A DNA stretch of 28,118 bases. Source: a virus. Below, piece by piece: positions 3,231-22,400 of the stretch. Position 1 is the first letter of the stretch. Every line of letters starts with the position of its first letter. The DNA lies in the IMG/VR virus record IMGVR_UViG_3300021424_000190, positions 1 to 28,118 of that record; one strand, 5' to 3'. The notes below the pieces were generated by a model. It saw only the letters and a program-made list of their open reading frames with translations, made no database searches and was not told where the DNA came from. Made by a program: the position numbers and the translations under genes.

Positions 3231-3628
3231 GACCCGATGGGAAGTATTGAGAAGTCGTGGGTGCCTTTCAACCCACGCGTTTTGCTTTTGCCGCCGAGTC
3301 TGTGATATGCGTACACGGTGCCAGTGAAAGTGATGCGAGTGTTCTGCTCGAGAGGGACGCCAAGGCGTTTCAAGTGCCGCGTCAGACACCAAAGGTGCGT
3401 CAGCGGCACGGACTCTCCGAGCGGAAGGGGTGTCACGATGAGGTTAACAAGGAGAACTGTCTCTAAATGTTTCTTTCGTGGGTGGGAACGGAACTCCTTT
3501 ATCCTGCCCGTGACTTCAACGAGGTGGTCTTCCAGTGGCTCCAGCTCTTGTCGGTAGTTCGGCGAGTAAATCCGTTCCTCGGCGGGGACGGACGTGCTGT
3601 GGGTCACATATGTGGGTAACACTAACAC
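3227..3628 (-). CDS. Hypothetical protein, possible OB-fold
   Basis: About 133 residues, function unassigned. The core runs HLVEVTGRIKEF, a strand VLLVNLIVTPL, then LTHLWCLTRHLKRLGV and RITFTGTVYAYHRLGG, ending HDFSILPIGS. This five-strand-like pattern with a VTGRI start and a TFTGTV...Y strand is suggestive of an OB-fold nucleic-acid-binding domain, but that is inference. No ATG exists in the reading frame. The frame stays open to 3805, but the extension would overlap the divergent gene by about 160 bases. I placed the start at the GTG at 3628; GTGs at 3622 and 3607 are alternatives. It is first in the minus-strand operon and couples to the 76-aa gene by ATGA. Confidence 0.5.
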   Translation of the reverse strand: MLVLPTYVTHSTSVPAEERIYSPNYRQELEPLEDHLVEVTGRIKEFRSHPRKKHLETVLLVNLIVTPLPLGESVPLTHLWCLTRHLKRLGVPLEQNTRITFTGTVYAYHRLGGKSKTRGLKGTHDFSILPIGS

Positions 3629-6279: not shown

Positions 6280-6287
6280 TTTTACCC
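6280..6287 (-). promoter_or_regulatory. GGGTAAAA junction motif (copy 2)
   Basis: The minus strand reads CCAGGGTAAAAGC, with the TAA stop of twin B embedded in the octamer. The next gene starts 44 bases on. No Shine-Dalgarno lies between them. Candidate late promoter or processing signal. Confidence 0.5.
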
Positions 6288-7088
6288 TGGATTGCTGAGT
6301 TTGCGACACACAATCATATCGATATACTGAACATTGAAGTTAAAACTCCCCCCAGTGAATGTTCCTACACCGGTAAGCGTTCCGGAAAGACTGTGACTAT
6401 GAGTCATGCTACTTCCGCTAAAAGAACCGCCGCTTCCTGACACAGCGTGCGTGTGGCCTTGGCTTCCTCCACTGGCAGATGTTAATGCAGTTGCGTTATT
6501 GTTAACACCGCTGCCATTTCCGCGTTGCGATCCTTCAGGCGGTCTATATTCGTAGCTGTGCTGGTGGGAGGCTATTTGGGATAAGGAAAGACTCGTGCTC
6601 CCAAGAGTCACACCACTAATACTAACCGAACCCGAAGGGGTTTGAGTTACGGAATCAGTTGTGCCAATAACTGAACCATTGACCGACACGGAGCCTGTGA
6701 AAGTTTGAGTGGTGAAAACAGAATTCCAGTCTGTGCTTCCACCTTGCCGCCCACCCGTTGGATTGTTGATGCGCAGCATTCTTGTTCCAGGGTTTTCCGT
6801 GATCCACCTTGGAGGGGCCCCGGACTGAAAGAATGTCATTATCGTACCAATCGGGAGGTACGAATTTGGGTCTATCGTCTTGGTTGACGAAATTTCAACA
6901 ATGCCAACACCCGAACCGGGAACGATTTGGATATCAGTCCCAGCAATGATCTTGCTGCAAAAAGTGTTCAAGTCCGCATTGACTGTGCCAGTGGCATTAT
7001 CAAGAATGATTCCTGAGCCCTGTTTGACAGCACCAGTTATCTCAGGCCCCCCTGGGACTTCCATTAGTTGGGCTTTATTTAGAGGCAT
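6282..7088 (-). CDS. Tail fibre tip protein, twin B
   Basis: A 268-residue paralogue of twin A with the same order: an N-terminal KAQLMEVPGGPE..GAVKQGSGI module, a LPIGTIMTFFQSGAPPRWI collar-like strand, Thr/Ser/Gly beta repeats, three HxH motifs (SHQHS, GHTHA, THSHS), the YRPPEGSQRG...GVNNN loop, and a FNFNVQYIDMIVCRK ending. Parts around the loop are almost identical to twin A at DNA level, while the flanking repeats differ. That pattern is typical of duplication with local gene conversion or recombination. Its TAA stop lies inside a GGGTAAAA motif, and another copy precedes its start. Expected on the virion as a receptor-binding tip. Confidence 0.82.
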   Translation of the reverse strand: MPLNKAQLMEVPGGPEITGAVKQGSGIILDNATGTVNADLNTFCSKIIAGTDIQIVPGSGVGIVEISSTKTIDPNSYLPIGTIMTFFQSGAPPRWITENPGTRMLRINNPTGGRQGGSTDWNSVFTTQTFTGSVSVNGSVIGTTDSVTQTPSGSVSISGVTLGSTSLSLSQIASHQHSYEYRPPEGSQRGNGSGVNNNATALTSASGGSQGHTHAVSGSGGSFSGSSMTHSHSLSGTLTGVGTFTGGSFNFNVQYIDMIVCRKLSNPG

Positions 7089-7122
7089 ACTAGTCTGACA
7101 CGGACTGTCTCATCATGACATG

Positions 7123-7130
7123 TTTTACCC
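7123..7130 (-). promoter_or_regulatory. GGGTAAAA junction motif (copy 3)
   Basis: The minus strand reads TAAGGGGTAAAAC: the stop of the 311-aa fibre gene is one base before the octamer. Twin B starts 34 bases on, with no Shine-Dalgarno in between. Confidence 0.5.
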
Positions 7131-7131
7131 C

Positions 7132-8067
7132 TTATGGGGCAGTGTTCAGTTCAACCCACTGAGATCCGCTGGAATCAATATAGTAGATGTACAGGGTTCC
7201 GTCTGAGCTATCCCACCATAGCTGGCCAGGGTAAGCATTTAACGGTTTCGTTTCTGAGATCGTAGCACCACCTACGGCCGTTCTTAGAAGCTGCTGGAGC
7301 TGGAAAATAGCATTCTGAACATTTATCGCGGTCAGAGGAGCAGAAGGAACGTATGAAATGTCTGTAGCAGTCAAGTTGCCGAGAGCTCTGACTTCTGACC
7401 ACTTTGCGACCTCAGACATTATCCAGTTTCCGGCCTCGCAAAGAACCTGAGGTGCGTTGTAATCCCCTGCAATATACGGGTTGCCGGCTTTTGTTACAAT
7501 GAAGAAGTCCCCACCATTGCTAATCGAGGGAAGAGGAAGGTGTTCCCCCACCCGGTATCCAAGCCTTTGTCCAATAATGCTTACAAAGGAGATATAACCT
7601 CCTTCAGCGTCATAGTAGCCACACCAAATAGCGGCATCAGTCTGAAGCTGTATATTTTGCCTCTGTAAATCGTTCAGTGCGGACACTATATTGACGTGAT
7701 CGGGAACGATGCAGTCGCTCAGATTCCCGATTTGATCCTGAAGACGTTTACCTGCTTTCGCGGTCAAGGCCTCCGTGATGCTGGTGGATGTGGTTGTGTC
7801 ATTTAACACCACAAGTCCTGAGAGTTCAGTCGTGGCCCTCCGAATCGGAATGTTGTCGGCGTCTGTTACCTTCCCTTGAACGTCCACAGCGAATTGACCT
7901 ACTGTGACATCATTTCCATAGGTTCCAGGAGTGACACCAGTGGCTACACCGACAATCCTCCACATAAATGTGGACGTGTCCCACCTATATTGAATGACGC
8001 CAACTGGGCAGGGATTAGGGTAAAGCTGCCCGTCGATGGGGTTGTCAGGGAAGTTTAACTGAGACAT
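7132..8067 (-). CDS. Tail fibre protein with DGQLYP N-terminus (311 aa)
   Basis: A 311-residue modular fibre protein. Residues 1-40 hold the FPDNPIDGQLYPNP...QYRWD...W module shared with three other fibres here. Residues about 85-115 (LSGLVVLNDTTTSTSITEALT) match the phage tail-fibre repeat pattern (PF03406-like). Residues about 145-225 resemble the 'LAGTYDA...GDW' module of the giant protein, here as WCGYYDAEGG...GNWIMSEVAKWSEV. The C-terminus (GQLWWDSSDGTLYIYYIDSSGSQWVEL) is a short beta domain also found twice in the 522-aa collar protein. It starts 6 bases after the 722-aa fibre, so the two are probably co-translated. A structural virion role is inferred from composition and context. Confidence 0.75.
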   Translation of the reverse strand: MSQLNFPDNPIDGQLYPNPCPVGVIQYRWDTSTFMWRIVGVATGVTPGTYGNDVTVGQFAVDVQGKVTDADNIPIRRATTELSGLVVLNDTTTSTSITEALTAKAGKRLQDQIGNLSDCIVPDHVNIVSALNDLQRQNIQLQTDAAIWCGYYDAEGGYISFVSIIGQRLGYRVGEHLPLPSISNGGDFFIVTKAGNPYIAGDYNAPQVLCEAGNWIMSEVAKWSEVRALGNLTATDISYVPSAPLTAINVQNAIFQLQQLLRTAVGGATISETKPLNAYPGQLWWDSSDGTLYIYYIDSSGSQWVELNTAP

Positions 8068-8073
8068 CGGTTA

Positions 8074-10242
8074 TCAGAACGGAGTCAGGTCGATTTGGAT
8101 GCGGCCCCAGGTGTTAGGCAAATAGCAGAAGTAGAGATAGCCGGTGTCATCCCAGGCGATCTCACCGACGCTTCCAGTATCACTGGAACTAGAAGGCGTA
8201 TATGCAGTAGACAAAACCAAGTTGCCGCCTGAAATCGTCATTGCGTTGGCACCTGGGACTCCCCCAGTGTTTACTGTTACGGGACCAGTGAGTATGGGAG
8301 AGTTAATAGTTGCGTACGTTGAAGCGGCTGCGGAGCTTGTCAGAAGACCCAACTGTGTTGCGGTTCTCCAAGCTGGAAGACCAGCATTCACCGCAAGGAT
8401 CGTCCCAGCGGTACCAATTGGTAGAGACGCAGGAGTATTAGGACCGGACGCATAAACGATGTCCCCTGTTACATCCAGCAACGAAGCAGAAATTGTGCCA
8501 GGGAACGTTTGTCCAGCGTTGAACGTAATGTTCCCGGTCATTGTGCCGCCGGTTTTCAGCAGGGCATCTGCGCCCGGCATTGTGACCCACGAACAGTTGC
8601 CGGCCCCGTTAGTTGAAAGGACTTGACCCGCTGTACCATCTCCGAGAGGATATGTTAAACCCTGGTTTGTGAAGATACCCTCGACACTAAGACCAGAACC
8701 GTTGATAATTTGGACGTTGCCATCAACTATCATTCCGCCATCGGTGATGGTAAAATGGTCGATGCCCAGCGTGTAAGTGGGGCCACCACCGTCATTAGTT
8801 GTGATTACGACGTTACGTCCGGAGTTAATATTGACCGGCAGAGATGACCATGTGCTCAGGGTGGTGCCATTGAGCTGATCAAAGTAAAGACCCGCCGTGG
8901 CGAAAGTTCCATTGCCATATGTAAGACTGGCAGCACCACCGGTGTTGGACAAAGTAAACGCTTGCTGTCCACCAACTAGCTCCAGGATCTGAATGGTTTG
9001 ATTTTCGATCGTAGAACTGAAACTACTCGAAGTGACCGCGATCGGGTTGGTGGTCGTCGCTCCTGCGTCAGTGACAGTTTGAAGAGTGCCGCCACCGGCC
9101 GAAATCACTCCACTTGAGTTGACGGTGATTGTGCTTCCATCTGGCTGAACCACACCAAGTGACGATGCGGTTGCTGAGGCCACTTCGATGAGTGGATTGG
9201 CAAGAGTGCCACTGATGCTGATCGCTCCTACACCACCCAATGCGCCTTCTGCAAGTACCCCTGGGAAAGTTTGACCAACTGTAAATGCGATTGGTCCTGA
9301 CATAGCACCGCCGACTAAAGGCAGCGCACCGACAGCCAAATCGTAAGCTTGCTTTACCGAATTTGGTGTAGCCGCCTCAGTTATAGATGTCGAAGAAACT
9401 GAGTCGCTGAGAGTAACTACACCGGAAGTTGAAGTCGTGGCCGCGTTCACCCCAACTATTGGAGCGGTCAGGGTTCCTGTGATTGTAATCGGTGCAGACC
9501 CTGAAACCGACGTGACTCCTCCTCCAGTAGAGCTGATCCTGCCGTCAGGAGCGATGGTGATATTGTCACCTTGGTAAACACCTCCGATCGTGGTGCCAGA
9601 GGCAGGATTAAGGAATACTGTTACTGCACCAGAAGTTCCACCCCCACCTAGACCCGTTCCGACACCCACGCCAGTGATTGTTCCACCACCTGCGACGTTG
9701 AGTGTTCCATCAGGTGTAACTGAGCAGTTGGTTCCAGGAATGATGCCCCCTAAGACCGAAGGGCTGGCGGGGGCGAGAGTGAGCAGTCCCGATGAAGCAA
9801 CTCGTAGTCCATTGGCGCCACCCGAGACAATCACGGATCCTAAAACCGCATTGGTTGCGGGGGTCGCAGCAATGCTGTAAGAGCTGCCTCCGAGGTCAGT
9901 GACTTGAATACCAGGACCACCGGAAATAGTTGTCGTTAACGAGACACGGATGACACCGTCTGCGTCGATAGATAAACCTGAACCATCGACGGTTTTAACG
10001 CCGCCTAAACTAACGCCAGCTGGAGGTAGGAGGCCAAGGAAAACAGTGGGTCCTGTTCCACCTCCTTGAATTCCGTTAGATGGTACGATGTTAGATACAG
10101 TCCCGCCACCGGCAGATGTTGAGATAGTTCCATCAGCCGCAATGGTAATACCAGACCCAGCCTTCACGGCCCCAATTGAGGCAGCACTTGTGCCGCTGCC
10201 GGGCGGATCCATGAATTGGGCTTTGATGAAAGCGTTTGTCAT
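8074..10242 (-). CDS. Large modular tail fibre protein (722 aa)
   Basis: A 722-residue fibre, rich in Gly, Thr, Ser and Val with very few charged residues. It opens with KAQFMDPPGSG...GAVKAGSGITIAADGTIS, as in the twin tips. It continues with at least six '(L/I)GGV...G..I..DG.IS' bead repeats (residues about 20-290), a GVVTLSDSVSSTSITEAATP fibre repeat (about 270-300), and two copies of a 'GG.M(S/T)G.I.F..GQTFPG' motif (about 315 and 565). It ends in a GEIAWDDTGYLYFCYLPNTW domain typical of phage structural proteins. The pattern fits a long trimeric beta-fibre shaft. It is preceded by a GGGTAAAA motif with no Shine-Dalgarno and followed after 6 bases by the 311-aa fibre. Confidence 0.8.
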   Translation of the reverse strand: MTNAFIKAQFMDPPGSGTSAASIGAVKAGSGITIAADGTISTSAGGGTVSNIVPSNGIQGGGTGPTVFLGLLPPAGVSLGGVKTVDGSGLSIDADGVIRVSLTTTISGGPGIQVTDLGGSSYSIAATPATNAVLGSVIVSGGANGLRVASSGLLTLAPASPSVLGGIIPGTNCSVTPDGTLNVAGGGTITGVGVGTGLGGGGTSGAVTVFLNPASGTTIGGVYQGDNITIAPDGRISSTGGGVTSVSGSAPITITGTLTAPIVGVNAATTSTSGVVTLSDSVSSTSITEAATPNSVKQAYDLAVGALPLVGGAMSGPIAFTVGQTFPGVLAEGALGGVGAISISGTLANPLIEVASATASSLGVVQPDGSTITVNSSGVISAGGGTLQTVTDAGATTTNPIAVTSSSFSSTIENQTIQILELVGGQQAFTLSNTGGAASLTYGNGTFATAGLYFDQLNGTTLSTWSSLPVNINSGRNVVITTNDGGGPTYTLGIDHFTITDGGMIVDGNVQIINGSGLSVEGIFTNQGLTYPLGDGTAGQVLSTNGAGNCSWVTMPGADALLKTGGTMTGNITFNAGQTFPGTISASLLDVTGDIVYASGPNTPASLPIGTAGTILAVNAGLPAWRTATQLGLLTSSAAASTYATINSPILTGPVTVNTGGVPGANAMTISGGNLVLSTAYTPSSSSDTGSVGEIAWDDTGYLYFCYLPNTWGRIQIDLTPF

Positions 10243-10263
10243 CGTTAAGTCATGCTAATTATC

Positions 10264-10271
10264 TTTTACCC
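10264..10271 (-). promoter_or_regulatory. GGGTAAAA junction motif (copy 4)
   Basis: The minus strand reads TCGGGTAAAAG, with the TAA stop of the 161-aa gene embedded. The 722-aa fibre starts 21 bases on. A gap this short leaves little room for a leader if this is a -10 element. Confidence 0.5.
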
Positions 10272-10751
10272 GAGTTGGTTCAGGATAGTAATCAATTCTT
10301 GACCGGTGGTTGCGTCATTGATTTGGGTTTGCACTTGCTCTTGAAGTGAGTTAATACCACTGAGGAATTCGATAGCCGCGACTTGGTCGGCTGTTCTTTC
10401 GTTCTCAGGCGTGGCAATAGCCAGTTGTAATTGGTAGTCATTGTTGATGCTTAAACCCAAAATGCCATTATTGTACTGTTGTTGCCAATATTGGGAGTTG
10501 TAGTTTGTAGCAGCTGCTTGCGCTTCATCCAGCACCCAGTCAAATGTTGGGGGAGTTACACTCACATCAACTGTTTGGGCATTTCCAATGAATGGAGAAG
10601 GTGGGATGTCGGCTGCATCAACGATTTGATACGGTGTCCCATATGGATCCAGAAACTTGAATGCGATGGTTTCAAGATCGTCTAGACCGGGTGAGATAAC
10701 GCGCAGATAAGGAGTGGGCGATGTTGGGTCGCTATAGACGATTACATTCAT
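10266..10751 (-). CDS. Small fibre-cluster accessory protein (161 aa)
   Basis: A 161-residue protein of unknown function that does not share the fibre modules. The N-terminal half (VIVYSDPTSPTPYLRVISP, FKFLDPYGTPYQIVDAADIP) is a strand pair pattern seen in small proteins next to phage fibre genes. The C-terminal half is helical and Gln/Glu-rich (VLDEAQAAATNYNSQYWQQQYN, TADQVAAIEFLSGINSLQEQVQTQI) and could form a coiled coil. This makes a chaperone or trimerisation helper for the adjacent fibres plausible, by inference only. It overlaps the preceding fibre gene as ATGA, so it should be made in step with the three 'DGQLYP' fibres upstream. Confidence 0.6.
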   Translation of the reverse strand: MNVIVYSDPTSPTPYLRVISPGLDDLETIAFKFLDPYGTPYQIVDAADIPPSPFIGNAQTVDVSVTPPTFDWVLDEAQAAATNYNSQYWQQQYNNGILGLSINNDYQLQLAIATPENERTADQVAAIEFLSGINSLQEQVQTQINDATTGQELITILNQLG

Positions 10752-11764
10752 GGGTAAACCGCTGTGTCAATGATGATGATATCGAATTCTGAAATCCCGT
10801 TCCAGTTGTTCCAAGTGAAGCTACCACTAGCCGCAGTGTTATCAGTGGTGAAGAAATTCACACTGTTTAGTTCTATGGAAGTCGTGGTCTTAAGCGAGAA
10901 GTTAATTAACTGGTTCCTTTGGTATAGCTGAGCAGAGCTTCCATAGGTAGGAACCCTAGCCGAAAGAGAAACCCCATATAAAGCATTCGGAAGAGCATTC
11001 TGAAAACTGACGACGACTCGCGGTTGTGTTCCAGTTTGCCAAGTAACCGCCGAAATGTTGTATCCTTCAGCAACGGTGAAACTGTATGGCGCCGAGGTTC
11101 CCGAAACACCTATGGTTCCCCAAGCCAAAACATTGACGTCTTGAAGGCTTCCCGCCACCTGTATAGTGCCGTCCGCTGACACAGAAATACCTCTTCCAAC
11201 ACGGACAGAACCAACCGTTAGACGGGTGGCAAGAGCAGCTGAGATGGTGCCAGTGTTGACGATAGGAGATGGGGCACCCACCAAACCAGGACCAACGTTG
11301 ATGCTCGTAACTCCAAATCGTGCAGTGGGAATAGAAATTGTTCCATCCAGCCCAACATCGATGTTATCACCAACAATGACACCACCCTCAGACGTCTTAG
11401 TAGCAGGAGTGAGGTCAATTTGACCAGTCGTTGTAATTGGTCCTCCTGAAAGGCCAGGACCAGTGGTAATCTGCTTCACGGTGCCGGAAGCCGCGTCCGC
11501 AGGGATGGCATCTAGTTTGGCTTTGTCATCCGCTGACATTGAACCTGCATTATTGAGAGTAGCAGGCAGGATGCTAACTACCGCATTGTTAGTGCCATCT
11601 GAGACAACGATAGGCAGAATGCCACTGACCGACTGAACTCCAAGGGGTGAATAGATCAGCCAGACTCCAAGGGACTGGTTCCATTGATATTGCAGAGACC
11701 CAGGAATAGCCGGTACTGGGTAAAGCTGGCCGTCCGCAGGATTTACGGGAAAGATGTAAGCCAT
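10748..11764 (-). CDS. Tail fibre protein with DGQLYP N-terminus (338 aa)
   Basis: A 338-residue fibre. Residues 1-40 hold the FPVNPADGQLYPVPAIPG...QYQWN...W module. Residues about 42-90 hold GVQSVSGILPIVVSDGT...ILPATLNNAGSMSADDKAKLDAIP, shared with the 253- and 365-aa neighbours. Three 'GG(V/I)..G..I...DGTIS' beads follow. The C-terminal 130 residues (AWGTIGVSGTSAPYSFTVAEGYNI ... ALPNALYGVSLSARVP ... SGSFTWNNW) are unique in the window and look like a terminal beta-sandwich or receptor-binding domain, differing from the cap used by its two neighbours. It overlaps the previous gene as TAATG and the next as ATGA. Confidence 0.75.
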   Translation of the reverse strand: MAYIFPVNPADGQLYPVPAIPGSLQYQWNQSLGVWLIYSPLGVQSVSGILPIVVSDGTNNAVVSILPATLNNAGSMSADDKAKLDAIPADAASGTVKQITTGPGLSGGPITTTGQIDLTPATKTSEGGVIVGDNIDVGLDGTISIPTARFGVTSINVGPGLVGAPSPIVNTGTISAALATRLTVGSVRVGRGISVSADGTIQVAGSLQDVNVLAWGTIGVSGTSAPYSFTVAEGYNISAVTWQTGTQPRVVVSFQNALPNALYGVSLSARVPTYGSSAQLYQRNQLINFSLKTTTSIELNSVNFFTTDNTAASGSFTWNNWNGISEFDIIIIDTAVYP

Positions 11765-12525
11765 TAGGTTAGGGAGACTCCGTAAAAGGTTAGATTGGCA
11801 GCTGGAGCCGAGGTGAATTGAATTTGATTACCACCCACATTAAACCCCTGCCCAGGGATTTGAAACACGCTGCCCACGAACACAAGGAGAGCGTTCTGAG
11901 ACGGGGGAGTGAACGGGACACCACCTACAGTGAGTTGGAAAGAGAGAGCAGATCCATTGAAACCGGACGATATGTCGTCCAGCACCTTGAAAGTTGCTCC
12001 AGTAGCTAAAGAGATAACCCCATCTGGTGCGATAGCCACACCCGAACCTTGACGGACTCCGCCAATCAAAAGAGAGGTAGGTGGGTCCAGCAGCAATGTT
12101 CCGTCGGTTTGAACACTCACACCAGGACCGGGTTTAACACCGCCAATAACTGTGTCAGTAGCGGGCAAAAGCCTCATTGTTCCCTTGAAGGTGATCGTAT
12201 CACCAGTGCCAGGGGCACCCAGTCCAACTCCGGCGGTCACTTCTTCTACCGAACCACCAGGTGTCAAGCTATCTAGTTTGGTTTTGTCAGCAGCGGACAT
12301 AGATCCCGCCGACAGTGGTGTGGCAGGCTCAATGTTAACGTCTGGTTTTTGAATGGAACCGTCGACAACAATGGGGAATGTGCCCGTGACTTCTTGTACG
12401 ACACCGAGTTGAAGGGTCTCCCAAGCACCTTTAGTGGCGTTCCATCGATATTGTTGTACTCCCTTGATTGCAGGGTTTGGGTAGAGCTGACCGTCGGTGG
12501 GTGATGCAGGAAACTCAAGTGCCAT
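11764..12525 (-). CDS. Tail fibre protein with DGQLYP N-terminus (253 aa)
   Basis: A 253-residue fibre with the same first 90 residues in pattern as its neighbours (FPASPTDGQLYPNPAIKG, VVQEVTGTFPIVVDGS, AGSMSAADKTKLDSL). Two or three 'IGGV..G.GV....DG...L' beads follow. It ends with a 75-residue cap: FKVLDDISSGFNGSALSFQLTVGG, LLVFVGSVFQIPGQGF, IQFTSAPAANLTFYGVSLT. The same cap appears twice in the 365-aa fibre and once at the end of the giant protein. It starts one base after the stop of the 365-aa gene and its stop overlaps the next ATG (TAATG). A structural role is inferred. Confidence 0.75.
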   Translation of the reverse strand: MALEFPASPTDGQLYPNPAIKGVQQYRWNATKGAWETLQLGVVQEVTGTFPIVVDGSIQKPDVNIEPATPLSAGSMSAADKTKLDSLTPGGSVEEVTAGVGLGAPGTGDTITFKGTMRLLPATDTVIGGVKPGPGVSVQTDGTLLLDPPTSLLIGGVRQGSGVAIAPDGVISLATGATFKVLDDISSGFNGSALSFQLTVGGVPFTPPSQNALLVFVGSVFQIPGQGFNVGGNQIQFTSAPAANLTFYGVSLT

Positions 12526-12526
12526 A

Positions 12527-13624
12527 TTAGATACCTAACACTTGACCGTTGAAAGTCGCTCCGGCAGGGGGAGCAGACGAGAACACAATATTGCTACCAT
12601 TCAGGGTATAAGCTTGATTTGGAGTTTGTAGAATACCGCCCACACCAATGAACAGGGAAGCAGGAGAAGCGGGGTTATAAACTTGTCCTGCTACACGCAA
12701 CGGGAATGAAGTGGCAACTCCATTGAACTGAGATGAGATATCATCCAACTGCTGGAAAGACTGACCGTTTGGAACAAACAAACGACCACTGAATTGAGTG
12801 CCAGTGGGTGGTGGAGAAACAAACTTGATGTCTTCGGTATTGACTACTGTGAATGTTGCTGGGGAAGGCTGAAGGATGCCTCCAAGCACGATAAACAAGT
12901 TCGCAGGTTGCGTTACAGTTTGAAGGCCACCGTTAACAGTTAGGGGGAATTGGGTGCGGACACCGTCAAACAGAGGAGTGAGATTGTCCAAGATGACAAA
13001 AGCACCTGTAGCACCTTGACCTCCTGCGGCACTGATGGTGCCATCAGACGCAATCGTAATGTTGTTACCAGCTTTGACTCCTCCTATTTGTCCCCCCATT
13101 GGAGGACGAAGGAAAAGGGTTCCTGTAGAAGTAATCGTTCCACCGCCTAAACCAACTCCTGCGGTAATACTTGTGACGCCCGAGAATGCTTGCAGAGTTC
13201 CATCTGGAAGAATGGTTACACCAGCTCCAGCTTTGACACCACCAATGTTTGGTCCACTTGGTGGGAGTAGTGAGATAGTTCCTGATTGCGTGATGGGGCC
13301 GCCCGTCAGACCCACTCCTGTATTGACACTCTTAACAGATCCAACTCCAGTAGACGGAATAGAATCAATTTTCTGCTTATCTGCTGCAGATAGGGAACCA
13401 GCGGAAGTAGTTGTGGCAGGGCGAATATTAACAACAGGTACTGAAGAAGTTCCAGTGATGACAATTGGAGCGTTCCCTAAAACCTGCAGAACCGCTCCCG
13501 AAACCAGAACCCAAACGCCTTTGTTGGCTACCCACTTGTACTGGAAAGTCCCAGGAATCGCAGGGTCTGGATAAAACTGGCCGTCAAATGGAGCGCTGGG
13601 GAAATTGTACGGAGTAAATGCCAT
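12527..13624 (-). CDS. Tail fibre protein with DGQLYP N-terminus, double cap (365 aa)
   Basis: A 365-residue fibre. It has a DGQFYPDPAIPG N-terminal module, then GAVLQVLGNAPIVITGTS...AGSLSAADKQKIDSIP, then three 'GGVKAG..(I/V)TI..DGT..A' beads (residues about 95-205). It ends with two tandem copies of the 75-residue cap: VILDNLTPLFDGVRTQFPLTVNG with FIVLGGILQPSPATF, and QLDDISSQFNGVATSFPLRVAG with FIGVGGILQTPNQAY...FSSAPPAGATFNGQV. A duplicated cap in one chain, with single caps elsewhere, points to module gain. The gene is first in its unit, 35 bases after a GGGTAAAA motif, and has no Shine-Dalgarno. Confidence 0.76.
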   Translation of the reverse strand: MAFTPYNFPSAPFDGQFYPDPAIPGTFQYKWVANKGVWVLVSGAVLQVLGNAPIVITGTSSVPVVNIRPATTTSAGSLSAADKQKIDSIPSTGVGSVKSVNTGVGLTGGPITQSGTISLLPPSGPNIGGVKAGAGVTILPDGTLQAFSGVTSITAGVGLGGGTITSTGTLFLRPPMGGQIGGVKAGNNITIASDGTISAAGGQGATGAFVILDNLTPLFDGVRTQFPLTVNGGLQTVTQPANLFIVLGGILQPSPATFTVVNTEDIKFVSPPPTGTQFSGRLFVPNGQSFQQLDDISSQFNGVATSFPLRVAGQVYNPASPASLFIGVGGILQTPNQAYTLNGSNIVFSSAPPAGATFNGQVLGI

Positions 13625-13658
13625 GCTGTTGGCGATCGAGATGGCGACTTTGTGTGAG

Positions 13659-13666
13659 TTTTACCC
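13659..13666 (-). promoter_or_regulatory. GGGTAAAA junction motif (copy 5)
   Basis: The minus strand reads TAGGGTAAAACTC, sharing its first G with the TAG stop of the 301-aa tip gene. The 365-aa fibre starts 34 bases on. Confidence 0.5.
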
Positions 13667-14571
13667 TAGTATCGAATCACTGGCAGCAATGCGACATTAT
13701 CGGGGCGAGTCTCACTTGTACCATCTTCTTCGGTGTAGGGGATGTTCGTTTCCGCCATGTTGATGCTCACGTTTGTCACAGCAAAATCTGTAATGACGTT
13801 GGCCTGGGTCGTGTCCAGAAACAAATTAGCGGGGTCAGTCGCTACCACCATGTTTGCTGATTCCTGACCTACGAAATAATAGTATTCCCCAAAGAATAAA
13901 CCACCACTCCCAAATTGGATAGCTCCATTGAAAATGATGTCGTATGCTCCACCATACCCGACATGGCTAAACTGATTATAGATATGCTGGTGACCGGGAT
14001 CACTGACAGTGTGGTTGTGACCGAAATCGATAATGTCGTGAATGTGACCTGGGTCAGTTACGCCGTGAATGTGGCCCGGATCTGTGATAGTGTGGGTGTG
14101 AGGAATCGCTTGGATTACGTGGTTGTGAACACCAACATCATCCTCTTGGTAAGAACCAAAGGTCCGCGATGGGTCGAGGGGACTGACTGAACCCCACCCA
14201 CGGCAGAATCGCCCAACAAGATTCGGCAGATTGAACGTGGTTGCTCCATCCCCAGAGCCGTACAGGGTTCCTATTTCACGGAAAAGCCGCGAGTACTGTG
14301 CACGGTAAACTGCGGAGCCGTCACACAACAGGTAGCCCTCTGGTGGGCGAGGCGAACAGAACCACATGATGGCACCAGCAGGAACAATACCACCAGAGAT
14401 GATGGGGACATACGGAGCCACTGTGTTGCCGGCAGCCACCCAAGCGCGCAGCTGTGCCGCTTCCTGGCTCAGGTCGTCCAGATGCATGTACGCATGAGTT
14501 TCATCTTGGTACTGAACGAAGTAAAGCAGATTTCTTTCGTCAGCGTATTGAGCGAGTTTGATCGGAACCAT
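13666..14571 (-). CDS. Short tail fibre/needle-tip protein with collar domain (301 aa)
   Basis: A 301-residue receptor-binding protein. Residues 1-60 hold an N-terminal module ending GNTVAPYVP, shared with the 305-aa tip and the collagen fibre. Residues 64-140 form a phage tail collar domain (PAGAIMWFC..PPEGYLLCDG, LFREIGTLYGSGDG, FNLPNLVGRFCRGW). Six HxH motifs follow at exactly 9-residue spacing: 149, 158, 167, 176, 185 and 194. A 40-residue Gly/Tyr/Phe-rich head comes next, then a return stretch with AN/TN pairs every 9 residues (239 to 276). It ends NVALLPVIRY. This matches the collar-needle-head plan of T4 gp37/gp12, where HxH sites hold a row of metal ions on the trimer axis. Confidence 0.87.
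   Translation of the reverse strand: MVPIKLAQYADERNLLYFVQYQDETHAYMHLDDLSQEAAQLRAWVAAGNTVAPYVPIISGGIVPAGAIMWFCSPRPPEGYLLCDGSAVYRAQYSRLFREIGTLYGSGDGATTFNLPNLVGRFCRGWGSVSPLDPSRTFGSYQEDDVGVHNHVIQAIPHTHTITDPGHIHGVTDPGHIHDIIDFGHNHTVSDPGHQHIYNQFSHVGYGGAYDIIFNGAIQFGSGGLFFGEYYYFVGQESANMVVATDPANLFLDTTQANVITDFAVTNVSINMAETNIPYTEEDGTSETRPDNVALLPVIRY
13984..14127 (-). repeat. Six HxH repeats, 27-base period (301-aa tip)
   Basis: In-frame coding repeat of (D)PGHxHx-type units: HNH, HTH, HIH, HIH, HNH, HQH, each 9 residues (27 bases) apart. Predicted metal-binding needle strand. Confidence 0.85.
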
Positions 14572-14572
14572 G

Positions 14573-15490
14573 TCAGTAGCGGATGTATGGCAAGAGTGTC
14601 AAGTTGGCAGGATTCGTTCTGTAACCACCTTGAGGATCTGTGTCTGTAATATTCGTTATAGCTGGGTCGACTGAGATATTGGTAAGTCCTAGTTTGTCTG
14701 AGACGTTAGCGAAGCCAGTATCAGTCAGAAGATTGGCAGAGTTCTGGTTGACCGTGAGGTTAGCACTCGCGAAGTTCAATGGTGGGCTATACGTGTCATA
14801 AAACGGTGAATAATTCATGTCCGGAGTGATGACCGTATTGTTTGTCCCGACGGATACGCCAGTGTAGTCGATCTCATACATCGTGATCACGTGGGCGTGC
14901 CCCGGATCTGGAACTGTGTGGGTGTGGCCGGGATCATCCCCAACATGGGTGTGCCCCGGATCATTCACTCCGTGCAAGTGCCCCGGATCGTTGACCGCAT
15001 GAGTGTGACCGGTATCGGTAATCTTGTGGCGGTGACGTCCGAGGGTGTTCACCTGGGAGCTGCCAAATGCTCGCCCAGGATCTAGAGAGTTCACAGGCCC
15101 CCAGCCGCGCAACATCTTCCCTCTAAGGTCCGGCAAGTTGAACGTGGTCATGCCATCCCCAGGCCCAAACGTAACGCCAATGGTGGAGAACAGTTTCGGA
15201 TATTGCCGACGTTTCACAGAGGTGCCGTCACAGAGCAGATATCCGTTCGGGACGAAGCTAGAAGAGTACCAGATCAACGAACCAGGGGGAACGATGCCTC
15301 CGGGAACAGGAGGTACGTAGGGTCCGATATTGTTGCCGTCCCGCAACCATTGGGCCAAGACGTTAGCTTGCCCCGAACCACTGTTCGGTGTGACAAACCA
15401 TGTCTGACCGTCGCTAAGGAGAACGAACACCAACGTGTTCTGAACATTAGCGTATCGCGCCGAAGTAATGAGAACGTTTGTTGGCAACAT
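14573..15490 (-). CDS. Short tail fibre/needle-tip protein with collar domain (305 aa)
   Basis: A 305-residue protein with the same plan as its 301-aa neighbour. An N-terminal module ends GNNIGPYVPP (residues 1-61). The collar domain spans about 66-145 ([59 protein letters not shown]). Six HxH motifs sit at exactly 9-residue spacing (153, 162, 171, 180, 189, 198) in DPGHTHxV units. A 40-residue Tyr/Asn/Pro head (about 201-240) is followed by a return stretch with AN/AN/AN/TN/TN every 9 residues from 243 to 279. It ends NLTLLPYIRY. The head shares no obvious sequence with that of the neighbour, suggesting a different receptor. It starts 1 base after the 255-aa gene and stops 1 base before the 301-aa gene. 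Confidence 0.88.
   Translation of the reverse strand: MLPTNVLITSARYANVQNTLVFVLLSDGQTWFVTPNSGSGQANVLAQWLRDGNNIGPYVPPVPGGIVPPGSLIWYSSSFVPNGYLLCDGTSVKRRQYPKLFSTIGVTFGPGDGMTTFNLPDLRGKMLRGWGPVNSLDPGRAFGSSQVNTLGRHRHKITDTGHTHAVNDPGHLHGVNDPGHTHVGDDPGHTHTVPDPGHAHVITMYEIDYTGVSVGTNNTVITPDMNYSPFYDTYSPPLNFASANLTVNQNSANLLTDTGFANVSDKLGLTNISVDPAITNITDTDPQGGYRTNPANLTLLPYIRY
14891..15034 (-). repeat. Six HxH repeats, 27-base period (305-aa tip)
   Basis: HRH, HTH, HLH, HTH, HTH and HAH at a perfect 9-residue period with a repeated DPGH context. Adjacent units are similar at DNA level (recurring CCCGGATC). Coding repeat, predicted metal-binding needle strand. Confidence 0.88.
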
Positions 15491-15491
15491 C

Positions 15492-16259
15492 TTAGGTTCG
15501 GATTATCGGCAGAAGTGCGATGTTAGCGGGACGGGGACCACCGACCACGCCGAAGTTATCAACGGTCATTCCAGTCACCGCTGGGGCCAGAGTGATCCCT
15601 GTGACCTGGGTTGCCAGAGTCACGCCCGTATTGGCGATTTTAACGGTAGTACCAGTGGGGGCACTGTTTAGGATAGTAATTCCTGTCTTACCAGAGGACC
15701 ATTGCGGACTCGTAAGACGATTCATATCAGTGATGAAAAAGTCATTATTGTTTCGAAAGCAACCACCACCACCGTTGATGGGTGCGTAAACTTCACGATT
15801 GCAAGTCGTGATTAAGATATAGGTGTGGGTTCTAAATGGGTTTACGCCAGTAAAGTGGGAGTGATCCGCAGTGTTGGCGTGTGCGTGGTTAGAAGTCGTT
15901 GGGTGAGTGTGGGCACCGGAAGATGTGGGGTGCTCGTGCTCTGGGTCTGTCACACCATGGGTGTGAGTTTGATTCCGGAACACGCCATGGGAATGCTCCC
16001 TGTTTACGCCGTCTTGGTAAGTGAACGGGGCGCGACCAGGATCCCCCAATCCTAGAGCAAAACGACCCACAAGATCGGGAAGACCGAACGCGAAGTCATC
16101 TCCTCCATAAGTATTACCGATGTGAACGTACAAGTCAGGGTAATCGGCTACCGCAACAGAGCGCCCATCGCACAATAACCAGCCCACGGGTGGTTCTGGT
16201 GCGGCTGACCACATAATGGTCCCCGAAGGGACACCGAGGTTTTGGGGGATAGCTGCCAT
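15492..16259 (-). CDS. Short tail fibre/needle-tip protein with collar domain (255 aa)
   Basis: A 255-residue tip protein that lacks the long N-terminal module and starts almost directly with the collar domain (residues 10-85: PSGTIMWSAAPEPPVGWLLCDG, YVHIGNTYGGDD, FGLPDLVGRFALGLGDPG). Six HxH motifs lie at 89, 99, 108, 117, 125 and 133, so the spacing drifts between 8 and 10. The head (about 136-190) is larger and contains two Cys (about 153 and 167) and Gly/Asn-rich loops. The return stretch uses TG pairs at 192, 202, 211, 220 and 229. It ends [10 protein letters not shown]. Its start overlaps the collagen fibre stop (TAATG). Probably a third, differently targeted receptor-binding tip. Confidence 0.86.
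   Translation of the reverse strand: MAAIPQNLGVPSGTIMWSAAPEPPVGWLLCDGRSVAVADYPDLYVHIGNTYGGDDFAFGLPDLVGRFALGLGDPGRAPFTYQDGVNREHSHGVFRNQTHTHGVTDPEHEHPTSSGAHTHPTTSNHAHANTADHSHFTGVNPFRTHTYILITTCNREVYAPINGGGGCFRNNNDFFITDMNRLTSPQWSSGKTGITILNSAPTGTTVKIANTGVTLATQVTGITLAPAVTGMTVDNFGVVGGPRPANIALLPIIRT
15855..15995 (-). repeat. Six HxH repeats, near 27-base period (255-aa tip)
   Basis: HSH, HTH, HEH, HTH, HAH and HSH with spacings of 10, 9, 9, 8 and 8 residues. Same predicted metal-binding needle strand as in the two following genes, but with Ser/Thr/Ala-rich linkers instead of DPG. Confidence 0.82.
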
Positions 16260-17797
16260 TACCAGTACGTGACGACGGCTTGAGCGATGTAGTTGCTATC
16301 GTAAAGTATAGTACTCTGAGCAATAATCGTAACCGTGAAGGCATCACCAGGAGCCACAGGAGCGCTTACTCCGTCCCAGCCCATAACCAAAGTTGCAGTG
16401 TTGCCAGCACTGATACTCCAACCGGAGTTTGAGCCGTTAACAGTCAAGGAGGGGCATTGGGCTCGAATGGATAGTGTTTGACCGGCTGGATTGGAGCCGG
16501 CGGGTATTCCAACTCCAGAGACCACAACCGTAAAGCCGGTTATGTTGGCGGGTAATGTGAAACTCTTAGTGTTGATTGGTAGACCCAGCCCATTTGTCTG
16601 CAGGTTTATCTGCTCAACCATGACCCGAGTGCCAGAGCCAGCGGGACCAACTGGACCTTGAGGACCTGCAGGACCTTGAGGACCCGTTGCCCCAGTGGCG
16701 CCAGCAGGACCTGTGGCGCCTGTTGCGCCTGTGGGTCCTGGGGATCCTTGCGAACCTTGGGTTCCTTGCGGACCGGCAGGGCCAGTGGCTCCGGTTGGGC
16801 CTTGAGCGCCAGTTGCTCCAGCGGGACCGATGGGCCCTTGGGGGCCTGCGACACCTTGCGGACCCTGGATTGGACCGGCATCATTCCAGTTGCCAGCTCC
16901 ATCATAGATCCACAGAGTGTTCGTGGCAGTAACGAGGTAGGCATCACCCTGGCTCGCAGGTGTCGGGAGGTTAACGACATTGGCAACCGTGCCAAGGAAG
17001 TCGAAACCAGGACCAGGCTGCCCTTGAGGACCGACAGGGCCGATTGCGCCCTGAGGACCCTGAGTTCCAGTGGGGCCTACGGGGCCGATTGGCCCCGCGC
17101 TTCCCTGAGGACCGGCGGGACCCTTCGGACCGACTGGGCCAGCGGGACCGATTTTCTCAGCGTACAGAGATTCGTCTACGAGCTCAGTGATCGTCCAGGA
17201 CCCGAAGCCTCCTGCTCGGAAGGTGCCGACTGCGTTTGTGCAACGAACTTTGACTGGGACTTCCTCAGTGGGGTTATAAACGAGGCTGATACTCGTTGTG
17301 ACAGAAGCTACGTCAGTATTTGTCGTTGGAATGGCAACGAAATCAGAGCCAGGATGCAAAGGAACGTTAGTGTCGGCGTTCACAAGCTCGAAGTTCGCGG
17401 CGCCAGCTGTCGGGTTGCTGAAATCAAGCGGGTTCAGTGTTACCGAGATCAGATAAGCACGGTAAGGAAGTAGAGAGATGCTAGTTCCACTCGTCAGGCT
17501 TAGATTGAAAGAGTCAGCAACTTCCCAGTTCGTGAGGTCCCCACCCGTAGTAAGGGGTCCCTGCGTTGCACTCGGTACACAGGTGATCCACGCAGGGGGA
17601 CCAGGTTTCGGGTAATCCGGTGGGATATACGGAGCGATCTGGCCGCCGCGATACACCCACTGGTTGAGTTGCTGAGTTCGAAGGTTCGTGAACTCGTTCG
17701 GATAAACGATCGCGGTGGATGCGTCGGCGTAGGTAACCTGAACAGCCGACTGATTCGTGCTGTATACGTAAGCAGCGGAAACAATAGCAGGAAGCAT
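16259..17797 (-). CDS. Collagen-like tail fibre protein (512 aa)
   Basis: A 512-residue fibre. Residues 1-60 are an N-terminal module ending [10 protein letters not shown], shared in pattern with the 301- and 305-aa tips. Residues about 75-210 are a beta domain. Then come two collagen-like Gly-X-Y blocks: residues 217-263 (about 15 triplets) and 312-389 (about 26 triplets), rich in GPA, GPQ and GAT. Between them is a 47-residue domain with [13 protein letters not shown]...[10 protein letters not shown], a familiar insert in phage collagen-like proteins. A C-terminal beta domain follows (390-512). Bacterial and phage collagen repeats form stable trimeric rods without hydroxyproline. It stops in a TAATG overlap with the 255-aa tip gene, suggesting joint production of shaft and tips. 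Confidence 0.87.
16622..17150 (-). repeat. Collagen-like Gly-X-Y coding repeats
   Basis: Two 9-base-period blocks within the 512-aa fibre, about 16622-16866 and 17009-17150, separated by a non-repetitive insert domain. The GC-rich triplets create long open frames on the opposite strand that are not genes. Confidence 0.88.
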
Positions 17798-17799
17798 AA

Positions 17800-19368
17800 T
17801 CAGGTCTTAATGATTGGGAGAAGCGCGATGTTCTTCGGACGAGTTTCAACTCCGCCTTCCAAGGAGATGGGTTCAGAACCGTCTTGTTTCCTAACATCGG
17901 TCAAATCGCCACCGGTAGTCTTCTGACCAGTCATCTGCTGGCTCTCTGCGGGAGCCAACACACCACGAGAATCCTTGAAGCCAGCGGCGTAGTCACCGGT
18001 GTTCAAGCTCAGAACGTGACGGTGGCTTGCGAAAATGTCATTTTGAGACGAGCCAAAAGCACGACCGCTGTCAACCCCACCGGTGGCTCGATTGTCCCAA
18101 CCACGAAGGAATTGACCGCGAAGATCGGGAATTTGGAACTGCGTTGCGGGAGTGGTTAGTGATGTGAAAGTTCGACCAATTGCCGCATAAAGTGCCGGAA
18201 AGGAGTCGTTATTTAGCGTTGCTCCATTGCAGAACAACCACCCTGTTGGTGGTGTAACACCTGCGAACCACTCCACTATACCCGCAGGAAAGGAGCCAGG
18301 AGGAACTGCGTCAACAGCCAGAACACCATTAGCAGTAACGTTGAGACCAGCACCGACAATAACACCACCAATTGCTCCATTTGTAGCGGGAGTCGCGTAG
18401 ATGGTGCCATCGCCTGTGACTGCAAGTCCGGCACCTGGTTTTGTCCCTCCAATTTGAGCAGAGGTTGCCGAAGCCAAACCGATAGTTCCGGTGGTAGTAA
18501 TAGGTCCACCTGTGATACCCGGTCCTGTCTGAATTTGTGTAACAGTTCCTGTTCCAGTCCCGGCCATGTTAATTGTGCCGTCGGGGTCAATGGTGACATT
18601 GTTCCCTGGTTTAACACCACCAATCTCAGCGGTAGTGGCGGGTTTTAGGATCAGAGTACCTTGGGTTGTGATGGGTTGCCCATCGAGTGTTCTCAGACCG
18701 GTTCCTGCATCGATCTTGGTAACAGTTCCGCCTTGTCCAGCGTTGATTGCTCCTGCGCCAGCAATCTGGATCCAAAGTTTAGTGGGACCGCCGTCATTGA
18801 ACAAGACAAAGAGAGAACCGGTATCATCATTCCACCAAAGTGTACCAGCAGCGGTAATATCTGGGTTGGGTTGTTGATCGGAAATGATAACGGCACCACC
18901 ACCTCCGGAGCCTCCAGCACCTACTTGCACCCATTGACGACCGTTGGGATCCTCATAGAGGACGTACATTTCACCGTTGTAGTCGTTCCACCAGAGCGCA
19001 CCTTCGGGATAAGCCTCTAAATCAGGCGGACTGGACTGAACAATTACTTTGGCGAACCTTTGTTCAGAAGGATCACAATCGGCCCAAATGGAGCCGGTCC
19101 AAATCTTCAGGGTTTGATCATTGACGTCAAACCAAAGCTCGCCTTTTGAATTCCCTGTCGTTCCCACAGGATTGGTGTTTGGTGGCGCGATACCAACGAA
19201 ACAAGGTCCGATTTTAGTAAGGAGGCCGTTACTGTTTGCGAAAAACAGTCCCGGCTCCGCGGCATCGATGTTTACTGCTGGCTGTCCTGCGAGCAGTTGT
19301 GTAGGATCCGGTCGATCTTTTGGAACACTTGACCGGAGTAATTGAATCTGAGTAGCGGAAACAGCCAT
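17800..19368 (-). CDS. Multi-module tail fibre protein with collar domain (522 aa)
   Basis: A 522-residue protein. The N-terminal 55 residues ([29 protein letters not shown]...PGLFFAN) are a module known from phage structural proteins. Then come [16 protein letters not shown], two 'GALWWND..G.(M/L)(Y/F)VL(Y/F)' domains (about 115-200), three to four 'IGG(V/T)KPG..(V/L)....DGTI' beads (about 235-340), and a collar domain ([55 protein letters not shown]). It has a single HxH (SHRHV) and a short C-terminus ending [10 protein letters not shown]. Unlike the three needle-tip proteins it has no HxH array, so its end may be shorter and more like gp12. First gene of a five-gene unit, 40 bases after a GGGTAAAA motif, with no Shine-Dalgarno. 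Confidence 0.83.
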
Positions 19369-19386
19369 ACGTGAATCTAATCGTCA

Positions 19387-19401
19387 ACCAAGATGTTCTT
19401 G
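19387..19401. repeat. Small inverted repeat between fibre genes
   Basis: CCAAGA-TGT-TCTTGG, a perfect 6-bp palindrome with a 3-base loop, lies between the GGGTAAAA motif and the start of the 522-aa gene. There is no T-tract, so it is not a terminator. It could be an RNA hairpin in a leader, or chance. Confidence 0.4.
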
Positions 19402-19407
19402 GAGTTG

Positions 19408-19415
19408 TTTTACCC
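19408..19415 (-). promoter_or_regulatory. GGGTAAAA junction motif (copy 6)
   Basis: The minus strand reads TCGGGTAAAAC, with the TAA stop of the giant gene embedded. The 522-aa gene starts 39 bases on. Confidence 0.5.
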
Positions 19416-22400
19416 GAAACCGATGGAGTAGAAGGTTGCTCCGGAGGGAGGTGCGGAAGAGAAGATGATTATACTTCCTGATGTGTTGTAAGCATTTCCG
19501 GCGCTTTGAACGATACCACCAACAGCCACCATGACATAATGAGCTGCTTTGGGGGCAAACGCTACACCTTCTACCAGCATTTGGAACTGAGTGCGCGATC
19601 CATCGAATGGGGCATCCAGCAACACAAGTTTGACATCCACACCACCAGGACCACCAGAGGCACTAAGGGTTCCGTCTGGTGTGATGGACAAACCTGAGCC
19701 AACCTTGATACCACCTAACTTGGTTGCAGTTGCGACATTAAGGGAGAGGGCGCCATTTGAACCTAAGATAAGACCAACATTAGGTTGAACAAACACGCCA
19801 CCAAGATCAGTAGCGGTTGCGGGACCCAGAGTGATGTTACAAGTGCGGCCATTTGGACCTAAGCCTGAGTTCGTAACACTAAGACCATCTGCAGCGGTGG
19901 CAGTGATGTTAGTGAAAGAATTCTCAGCTTTGACTTCGAGTTCCGCGATACCAGCTTGAACATTGGTTGCGGATAGTCCAGCAACGGGAGACAAGCTAAC
20001 ATTGACTGCCGCGATTGCTGTGTTCTCGAAGTCAATGGTGACCCAAGCTGCCGGTTGGCCTTGTTCCCTCTCTACAACAAACCAGTCTCCAGACTGAACA
20101 CCGGTTCCAGGAATAACTGCTCCAGGAGGGCCAATAAGACCAGAAGTGGTAACCAGGACGTAGTAATTGTCGGGGACTTGTCCTGCGGCTGGTGCTTGAG
20201 CGCCGACTGTGAGATAAGCAGAGCCGGCAGGAGTGACTGAAGCAACAACACCAGTTCGGGAGTTGTAAGTACCAGCGAGAACGTTGGAACCTGTAAGAGC
20301 AGCAATCTTAGCGTTCAGCTGAGAAGCGGCAAACTGAGTTAGGGCGAGTTCCTCGGACGATCCAGTAACGTCATTTGTGAGTTGAGTCACACCCACCGTG
20401 CCAACGTTGGCACGCAGAGTGTTGATTGTTAGTGTCGTACCATCATTCGAAGAACGAATCGGAGGCGAGATACCAGCCGAAAGCCCACCGGCTCCACCCA
20501 CATTACAGAATTCCACACGATCCTGAACCTGAAGCTCTAGAGCTTCCAATGCGAGCTGCACATTGGTAGCTGATGTGATTCCAGAAATCAGCGGATTGAC
20601 GATAATGTCGCTTGCCTGCTTGCTTCCCTCGCTGGCATTGAGGGTGCCGTCTGGATCGATTGTTAGGTTTCTTCCGACTTTGACGCCGCCTAACTGAGTC
20701 GCCGAAGCAATCGCCAGTGATAGAGAACCGTTGCCACCGAGGAGAATACCACTGGAAGGCCCTTGAACAAACACACCCCCGAGATCCACTTGAGTAGCGG
20801 GCCCAAGGCGGATTTGAGCTTCTCTTCCTCCGGGTGAAGGAGCAGTCAAAGTAATTGAAAGGGCATCCACACCAGGAGCGGTCACATTGGTGATGGATTT
20901 TTCGGCTTTTACCTCTAGCTGCTCAATGCCTGTTTGAACATTGGTGGCAGACAAACCAGGAACGGTAGACAGAGAGACTTGACTAGCAGTAGTAGTCTCG
21001 TTCTCAAAGTCAATCGTAATCCAGGCTGCTGGGAAGGTTGGTGTGTTCTCCACAACAAACCAGTCTCCAGACTGAACTCCGGTGGCGGGGACCACAGCAC
21101 CCGGAGGACCGATTTGACCTGATTTAACAACCAAGAGGTAGTAATTGTCAGGAATGCCAGATGCGGCAGGGGCTTGTTGGTTGATTCGGAAGTAAGGAGA
21201 ACCAGCAGGTGTCGTAGTGACAACAAGACCAGTATTGGAGTCGTAAGTACCAGCCAGAACGTTTCCACCAGTAATGGCTTCGATCTTGCTGTTCAGTTGA
21301 GCCGCGGCTTTTTGCGAAAGAGCAAGAGTTTCTGAAGTGCCAGTGAAGTCGTTTGTCAAGGTTGTGAAACCTTGAACTCCCACGGTAGCCACCACGGGGG
21401 TTAGTGTTATCGTTGTACCTTGGTTAGAAGTTAAGGAAGGCGCAGACACGGTTGCCGCCAGTCCCAAACCATCAACCTTACAGAATTCGACTCGGTCTTG
21501 GGCCTGGAGCTCAAGTGCTTCGAGACCTTCCTGAACGGTACGAGCACCATCGATTCCGGGGATCTTATCGATTTGAATGCCAGAGGCTTGACCAGAACCG
21601 TCAGTGCTAAGAATTCCATCGGCGTCGATTGTCAAACCTTTGCCTACTCGGATGCCACCAATATGGGCAGCAGATGCCGCAGCAACGGAAAGACCGCCAG
21701 AAGCTGTAAGATTCAGTCCAACAAACGGACCAACATACACACCCCCTAGATCCACGGAATTAGCCGGATTGAGGGAAATGGTCGCCGTTCCTAGAAGCCC
21801 AGGAGTGTAAGGAGACTGAGTGACGGTAATACCGTCGTTTCCGCTTTGAATTGTGCCAAAAGCGGACCACAGCTTCCCGGTAACTTCTGTAAAACCAGAT
21901 TGAACATTACTTGCGCCCAAACCAGTAACAGGTGCCAAATAAACATTGGCGGCCACTACATCGCGATTCTCAAAATCAATCAGAAGCCACTCAGGGACGC
22001 CAATGTCATCTTGAACGATGAACCAGTCGCCAGATTGAGCTCCGGTAACAGGAACAACAGCGCCTGGTGGACCGACAGTACCTGTGACGATAACAATGAC
22101 GTAGTAGTTATCAAGGTCAGTTCGAGCAGCGGGTGGTATTCCTCCAGCTCTAAAACCTTTCGCATAACCCGCAGCCGTGGTTGTAACCATGAGGCCGGTT
22201 TTAGCGTTGTAAGTACCGGCTAGAATGTTGACACCGACCAGTGCGTCCACCTTAGCATTCAGCACCGAAAGTGCGAACTGAGTGGGGGCGATTACCTCCG
22301 ATATCCCAGAAGGGTCGTTAGTTAGCTGAACGATACCTGGTTCAGTTGTAGACGCACTCTTCAGTCCGATTTGAAGAGTGGTTCCGTCATAAGCCGTGGC

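Follow-up and report, generated by a model that had tools for sequence, protein, structure and literature searches.

Octamer GGGTAAAA as a predicted late promoter of S-CBWM1-like cyanophages

The late promoter of bacteriophage T4, TATAAATA, is an 8-bp element located about one helical turn before the transcription start and is recognized by gp55 in concert with gp33 and the gp45 clamp, and the T4-like cyanophages have the late element NATAAATA (PMC2988020, PMC2984593). In phiEco32 and Salmonella phage 7-11, a −10-like element (tAATGTAtA) and a phage sigma factor serve the structural gene cluster, and the early genes have host-type promoters (PMC4331800). Microcystis phage Ma-LMM01 has neither gp55 nor gp33, and its late promoters are SigA-like with −35 and −10 elements (PMC5780444). 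Here we examined an octamer, GGGTAAAA, that recurs at gene ends in a stretch of viral DNA of 28,118 nucleotides (nt) carrying a tail fibre gene cluster (IMG/VR record IMGVR_UViG_3300021424_000190, positions 1 to 28,118; referred to as the window). The original prediction, made from the letters of the window by a model, had taken the octamer for a compact late promoter without a −35 element, read by a phage sigma factor and tucked into gene ends, with an RNA processing or translation re-initiation signal as the alternative. The promoter was supported by our analysis: GGGTAAAA very probably forms the core of a late promoter specific to the phage, consisting of an extended −10 element without a −35 element and probably read by a phage sigma factor. 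"Late" may here mean "middle and late", since it serves replication genes as well.

Position and conservation of the octamer

Six exact copies of GGGTAAAA were found in the window, all on the minus (coding) strand and exactly where they had been predicted (Table 1). Dinucleotide shuffles of the window contained 0.71 copies on average, and six copies were reached in none of 100 shuffles. An exact-match count over the 28,118 nt gave no copy on the plus strand; a variant on that strand, GGGTAACA, had been overlooked in the original prediction. The base after the octamer is G or C in all six copies, as predicted. According to the list of open reading frames (ORFs), the fibre-cluster junctions carrying the octamer have gaps of 41, 41, 23, 43, and 46 nt, whereas at those without it the genes, with no exception, overlap or lie no more than 6 nt apart. 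The claims that the octamer marks every gap of more than 20 nt and divides the cluster into six units (the giant gene, then five, four, two, one, and three genes) were therefore correct. The relation to stop codons had also been read correctly: a TAA lies inside the octamer in three copies (6280, 10264, and 19408), a TAG and the octamer have the first G in common in two (107 and 13659), and a stop codon lies one base upstream in one (7123). Within the fibre cluster, the distance from the octamer to the following ATG is 21 to 44 nt and no Shine-Dalgarno sequence is evident, again in agreement with the prediction.

The 5′ nuclease encoded in the window showed 49% identity to its counterpart in Synechococcus phage S-CBWM1 and 86–91% identity to that in most of ten uncultivated contigs; judged by sequence, the window is part of the genome of an uncultivated S-CBWM1 relative. 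Since only a fragment of this genome is at hand, the genome-wide count on both strands that the original prediction had proposed was performed with the complete S-CBWM1 genome and long contigs. S-CBWM1 (139 kb) contained 33 forward copies and one reverse copy of GGGTAAAA (2.3 expected; z score, 20), and the 112-kb contig G009 contained 31 forward copies and no reverse copy (1.6 expected; z score, 24). Under a dinucleotide model, GGGTAAAA was the most over-represented 8-mer in both. A ranking by a high-order Markov model failed to reveal the motif, owing to the enrichment of its sub-words, and dinucleotide and anagram controls were therefore used. In the 30 contigs besides S-CBWM1 and the window, the octamer was mostly or wholly one-stranded, a few short contigs having just one to four copies. 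No comparable excess or strand bias of GGGTAAAA was observed in S-TIM5, Mic1, A-HIS1, S-N03, ACG-2014f, or T4, and a ranking of over-represented words in S-TIM5 gave no such top word. Contig G030, with three copies on one strand and two on the other, showed no enrichment and bears only a 31% homologue of gp142, a sigma-like protein of S-CBWM1 described below. Two contigs that bear the sigma factor and the motif of the group, G013 (189,900 nt) and G017 (277,244 nt), are far longer than S-CBWM1.

The octamer avoids the interior of genes, as the original prediction had stated by eye. None of the six copies in the window lies deep inside an ORF, compared with 57 of 69 anagrams. In the relatives, where an equal frequency inside coding sequences would have spoken against the prediction, 17 of 200 copies lie deep inside ORFs, compared with 4439 of 6475 octamers of the same composition (69%). 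Because GGGTAAAA contains TAA, other NNNTAAAA words were added as a control; the proportions deep inside ORFs were 14/176 for GGGTAAAA and 311/505 for the others, the commonest of which occurred 21 times. In S-CBWM1, 32 of the 33 copies end within 100 nt ahead of a gene start, at a median distance of 27 nt, and two copies precede tRNA genes. The upstream TAA lies inside the octamer in only 8 of the 33 copies, so that the placement in gene ends is frequent yet not defining. Such placement is explained by the TAA in the octamer and the tight packing of the genes, and we propose from it that the fibre genes form separately promoted units. The lack of Shine-Dalgarno sequences was likewise not special to genes after the motif, since a Shine-Dalgarno-like word occurs in 11 of 30 such genes in S-CBWM1 and in 43 of 142 other genes. 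Across all lineages, T stands at position −1, immediately before the GGG, in just 5 of 195 copies, and stop-codon overlap may account for only part of this scarcity.

Two further repeats were noticed in these genomes. The S-CBWM1 repeat TACAGATGTGAAAGATTnnnnACTGTCCCATGGG is present at 26633, 65857, 126611, and 135656, and also at 96451 and 132314, and four of these six copies end at or just ahead of GGGTAAAA. A 72-nt tandem repeat, probably coding, lies at 31841–33626 of the reverse complement of contig G019 and contains CAGCCTAACCT in most units.

The octamer is conserved at orthologous junctions. In relatives of the window it was intact by column in 23 of 26 alignments, the flanks of which averaged 74% identity; in the remaining three, a gap moves the octamer by one base, and the word is present when the printed sequences are read. 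The copy at 107 was unchanged in all six aligned relatives, and it has counterparts that likewise follow the 5′ nuclease gene at 88623 in S-CBWM1 and at 94370 in G009. When S-CBWM1 genes were compared with those of relatives, at protein identities mostly of 30–60%, genes with the motif kept it in 56 of 82 cases and other genes had it in 18 of 231 (p = 4e-26, a value that is only nominal because the relatives are not independent). The genes that keep the motif in front include those for the portal, sheath, and protease.

The direction of the motif follows that of the downstream gene. Four of five reverse-strand copies of GGGTAAAA face a reverse ORF 7–53 nt away, and three of these four stand back to back with a forward copy. 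Orthologues of the plus-strand gene of the window were found in 15 other sequences, with 53–89% identity among non-identical relatives, and the gene is inverted in all relatives examined. Nearly all of these orthologues are preceded, on the same strand and at the same place, by GGGTAACA, GGGTAAAG, GGGTAAAT, or AGGTAAAAT; contig G007 was ambiguous.

Predicted promoter structure and candidate sigma factors

An A residue was found at nt 7 past the octamer in 86 of 148 copies from six lineages (p = 5e-13); in the window clade it stood at nt 8, in 33 of 44 copies (p = 5e-11). Such a peak is as expected of a transcription start, and with this A taken as +1, TAAAAY falls at the −10 position. No −35 signal was detected: upstream of the octamer, the information content did not exceed about 0.05 bit at any position but −1, and matches to TTGACA, as a host-type sigma70 promoter would have, were as frequent as in random sequence. 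The element thus resembles −10-only late promoters, in which a short −10-like element precedes late genes with nothing at −35. Enrichment on the coding strand was seen for one-mismatch variants such as GGGTATAA (13:1) and GGGTACAA (19:4), whereas changes at the −11-like A were not enriched. A conserved hairpin in the leader that follows the copy at 107 was also considered; however, the folds differ among relatives and the idea was dropped.

We suggest that the octamer is recognized through region 2 of a sigma factor that is encoded by the phage, most likely one of the S-CBWM1 gp142 type, and bound to host RNA polymerase. TAAAA(Y) would then be the −10 element, extended upstream by the GGG. After melting of the DNA, transcription would begin at a purine, usually the A residue 7 or 8 nt past the octamer, and the leaders would be short, at about 15–35 nt.

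The octamer is separated from a second, early-type element, in which a G+C hairpin (GGGCGGTAAACCGCCC or GGGCGGTTTCCCGCC) runs into a −35-like word (TTTACA/TTG), followed after about 17 nt by a TATAAT-like word. In the 190-kb contig G013, all 21 copies of GGGTAAAA lie within 101–190 kb, where the structural and replication genes are also located. The first 98.5 kb of this contig, devoid of GGGTAAAA, contain 38 of 39 copies of the early-type element, here a GGGCGGTT hairpin with a sigma70-like promoter behind it. A similar early element is present in S-CBWM1, and GGGTAAAA is absent from 28–47 kb of that genome.

Relatives of the window encode predicted phage sigma factors. S-CBWM1 has two sigma-like genes, gp142 and gp152. 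The gp142 type contains the Pfam sigma region 2 and a probable region 4 and has sigma relatives in the PDB; its family is phrog_351, not phrog_234. Its predicted structure had a mean confidence (pLDDT) of 40 without an alignment, which is useless, and 75.6, which is fair, with 14 sequences, the fold then being sigma-like. Relatives of the gp142 type were found in G009, G006, and G008, in seven of eight contigs with gp152 relatives, and in other motif-rich contigs. A full gp142-type sigma factor was detected in 10 of 14 motif-bearing contigs searched and in 13 further motif-bearing records, S-CBWM1 counted. The gp142 of the window clade shows 43–45% identity to that of S-CBWM1, and the one-base shift in the A spacing between this clade and the others parallels this greater divergence, a parallel that is suggestive only.

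A T4-type reader was ruled out, since S-CBWM1 has no TATAAATA on either strand and lacks the gp55 and gp45 clamp families. The gp55-family sigma factor (phrog_234) and the gp45 sliding clamp (PF02916) were both absent from the complete S-CBWM1 and from G009, G013, G019, and G023, and both were found in T4, S-N03, and ACG-2014f; BLASTP of gp142 against T4 gp55 gave no match. Because of this absence, its wide distribution, and its sigma region 2 with a probable region 4, the gp142 type appears to be a better candidate than gp152 and is most likely the reader. gp152 as the only reader was rejected, as G009, G006, and G008 gave just a short region-2 match to it.

Weighing of alternative explanations

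Several points weigh against a late promoter read by a gp142-type sigma factor. The initiation of transcription, the exact start, and the assignment of the sigma factor are all deduced. Two phage sigma factors are present in each of S-CBWM1, G013, G019, and G023, so that the reader is not fixed. Most gp142-bearing contigs were obtained by searching with gp142 itself, and the close relatives of the window are non-independent samples. The window, a 28-kb fragment, has no sigma gene, and G001, G004, G007, and G015 gave no full gp142 match; all four are fragments of 34–52 kb, and the co-occurrence of gp142 and motif therefore cannot be judged there. In addition, the excess of GGGTAAAA copies within 40 nt after an intrinsic terminator (ten copies against 0.75 expected), which in itself favours a promoter, may partly reflect a preference of both features for intergenic sequence, which a control that ignores position leaves in.

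In a less likely alternative, the promoter is the same but its reader is the second phage sigma factor (S-CBWM1 gp152 type), or else a sigma factor of the host acting with a phage activator. The paired sigma genes just mentioned speak for it, as does the presence of GGGTAAAA in all contigs found through gp152 relatives. On the other hand, G009, with 31 copies, has a gp142-type gene only, though this contig may be incomplete, and close gp152 relatives occur in fewer lineages than those of gp142. A host sigma factor would moreover be expected at the sigma70-like early element of these genomes.

Cleavage of a polycistronic fibre mRNA by an endonuclease at GGGUAAAA is improbable. The motif is intergenic on the transcribed strand, and the fixed downstream A could mark a cut; however, the copies directly after terminators lie where little read-through RNA would exist, and some copies are arranged back to back between divergent genes. 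The variants are also −10-like, with GGGTATAA and GGGTACAA favoured and the −11 A kept, and the octamer is sharply separated from the host-type promoter element. Still less probable is a translation re-initiation or ribosome-landing signal past the stop codon. The motif does often overlap a stop codon and precede a start codon, but the start codons, at a typical distance of 22–43 nt, are too far off for ribosome binding, and tightly coupled genes with gaps of 1–6 nt lack the motif. Shine-Dalgarno-like words are neither rarer nor commoner after it, and a role in translation is disfavoured for the two copies before tRNA genes. Both alternatives raised in the original prediction thus fit worse than a promoter. 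A polar DNA motif (Chi-like, packaging, or segregation) or a chance word is hardly credible in spite of the strong strand bias, since the bias tracks gene direction even at minority-strand genes, gene interiors are avoided, and the same genes keep the motif in front.

Table 1. Coordinates of the octamer copies and of related features (positions in the window, except for the last row)
Feature	Position	Strand	Remark
GGGTAAAA, predicted late promoter after 5′ nuclease gene	107..114	-	predicted start ~99; next ATG probably 82
GGGTAAAA, predicted late promoter of unit 5447-6235 / 5123-5443 / 4390-5121	6280..6287	-	TAA ends gene 6282-7088
GGGTAAAA, predicted late promoter of gene 6282-7088	7123..7130	-	one base past TAA of gene 7132-8067
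GGGTAAAA, predicted late promoter of genes 8074-10242 and 7132-8067	10264..10271	-	TAA ends gene 10266-10751
GGGTAAAA, predicted late promoter of four genes, 12527-13624 to 10266-10751	13659..13666	-	G in common with TAG of gene 13666-14571
GGGTAAAA, predicted late promoter of five genes, 17800-19368 to 13666-14571	19408..19415	-	TAA ends giant gene
GGGTAACA, variant predicted promoter, opposite direction	3614..3621	+	precedes gene 3644-4393 by 22 nt
Conserved opposite-strand gene, 249 aa, no assigned function	3644..4393	+	no Pfam match
5′ nuclease gene, upstream of copy at 107	114..1097	-	homology to S-CBWM1 5′ nuclease
First gene of three-gene unit	5447..6235	-	PHROG search: no match
Single-gene unit	6282..7088	-	PHROG search: no match
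Tail fibre-like, first of two-gene unit	8074..10242	-	
Fibre/virion structural protein, first of four-gene unit	12527..13624	-	
Tail collar/fibre protein, first of five-gene unit	17800..19368	-	phrog_523, 2e-37
Giant gene, 2902 aa, open at window edge	19410..28118	-	phage fibre repeat in C-terminal 696 aa
Early-type element in S-CBWM1	2670, 8917, 11181, 19442, 23046, 27355, 32332, 40208, 101576		

Comparison with known late promoters

A late promoter at GGGTAAAA would provide a readable code of late transcription for a little-studied cyanophage group with one cultured member, S-CBWM1. It would allow late operons of uncultivated relatives to be called from sequence, and it names a candidate sigma factor for late transcription. 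It also suggests that the T4 late system is not common to all large tailed cyanophages. No paper describing GGGTAAAA as a phage promoter was found among titles and abstracts, in which the matches look like primers, and a prior mention in the S-CBWM1 paper is possible.

T4 late promoters and GGGTAAAA have in common an octamer about one turn before the start (a predicted start in the present case), the lack of a −35 element, the late structural genes served, and a phage sigma factor, here a putative one. They differ in the octamer itself and in the candidate sigma factor, which belongs to another family, with region 2 and a probable region 4. We tentatively suggest, as a bolder reading that may well prove wrong, that a cyanophage clade with contigs of up to 277 kb relies not on the T4 late machinery but on a dedicated two-domain phage sigma factor reading a G-rich extended −10 element without a −35 element or clamp. 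In this clade the start spacing would have shifted by one base alongside sigma divergence, and the promoter would double as the stop codon of the prior gene.

As in phiEco32 and 7-11, a short −10-like element, with a phage sigma factor as its reader (a putative one here), precedes the structural cluster and host-type promoters precede the early genes; unlike in those phages, the sequence is another one, the hosts are unrelated, and 21–33 copies occur in longer genomes, often on stop codons. Ma-LMM01 is likewise a cyanophage without gp55, but its late promoters have the −35 element that is lacking at GGGTAAAA. The GGGTAAAA promoter is thus apparently an undescribed member of the −10-only phage late promoters, like those of T4 and phiEco32.

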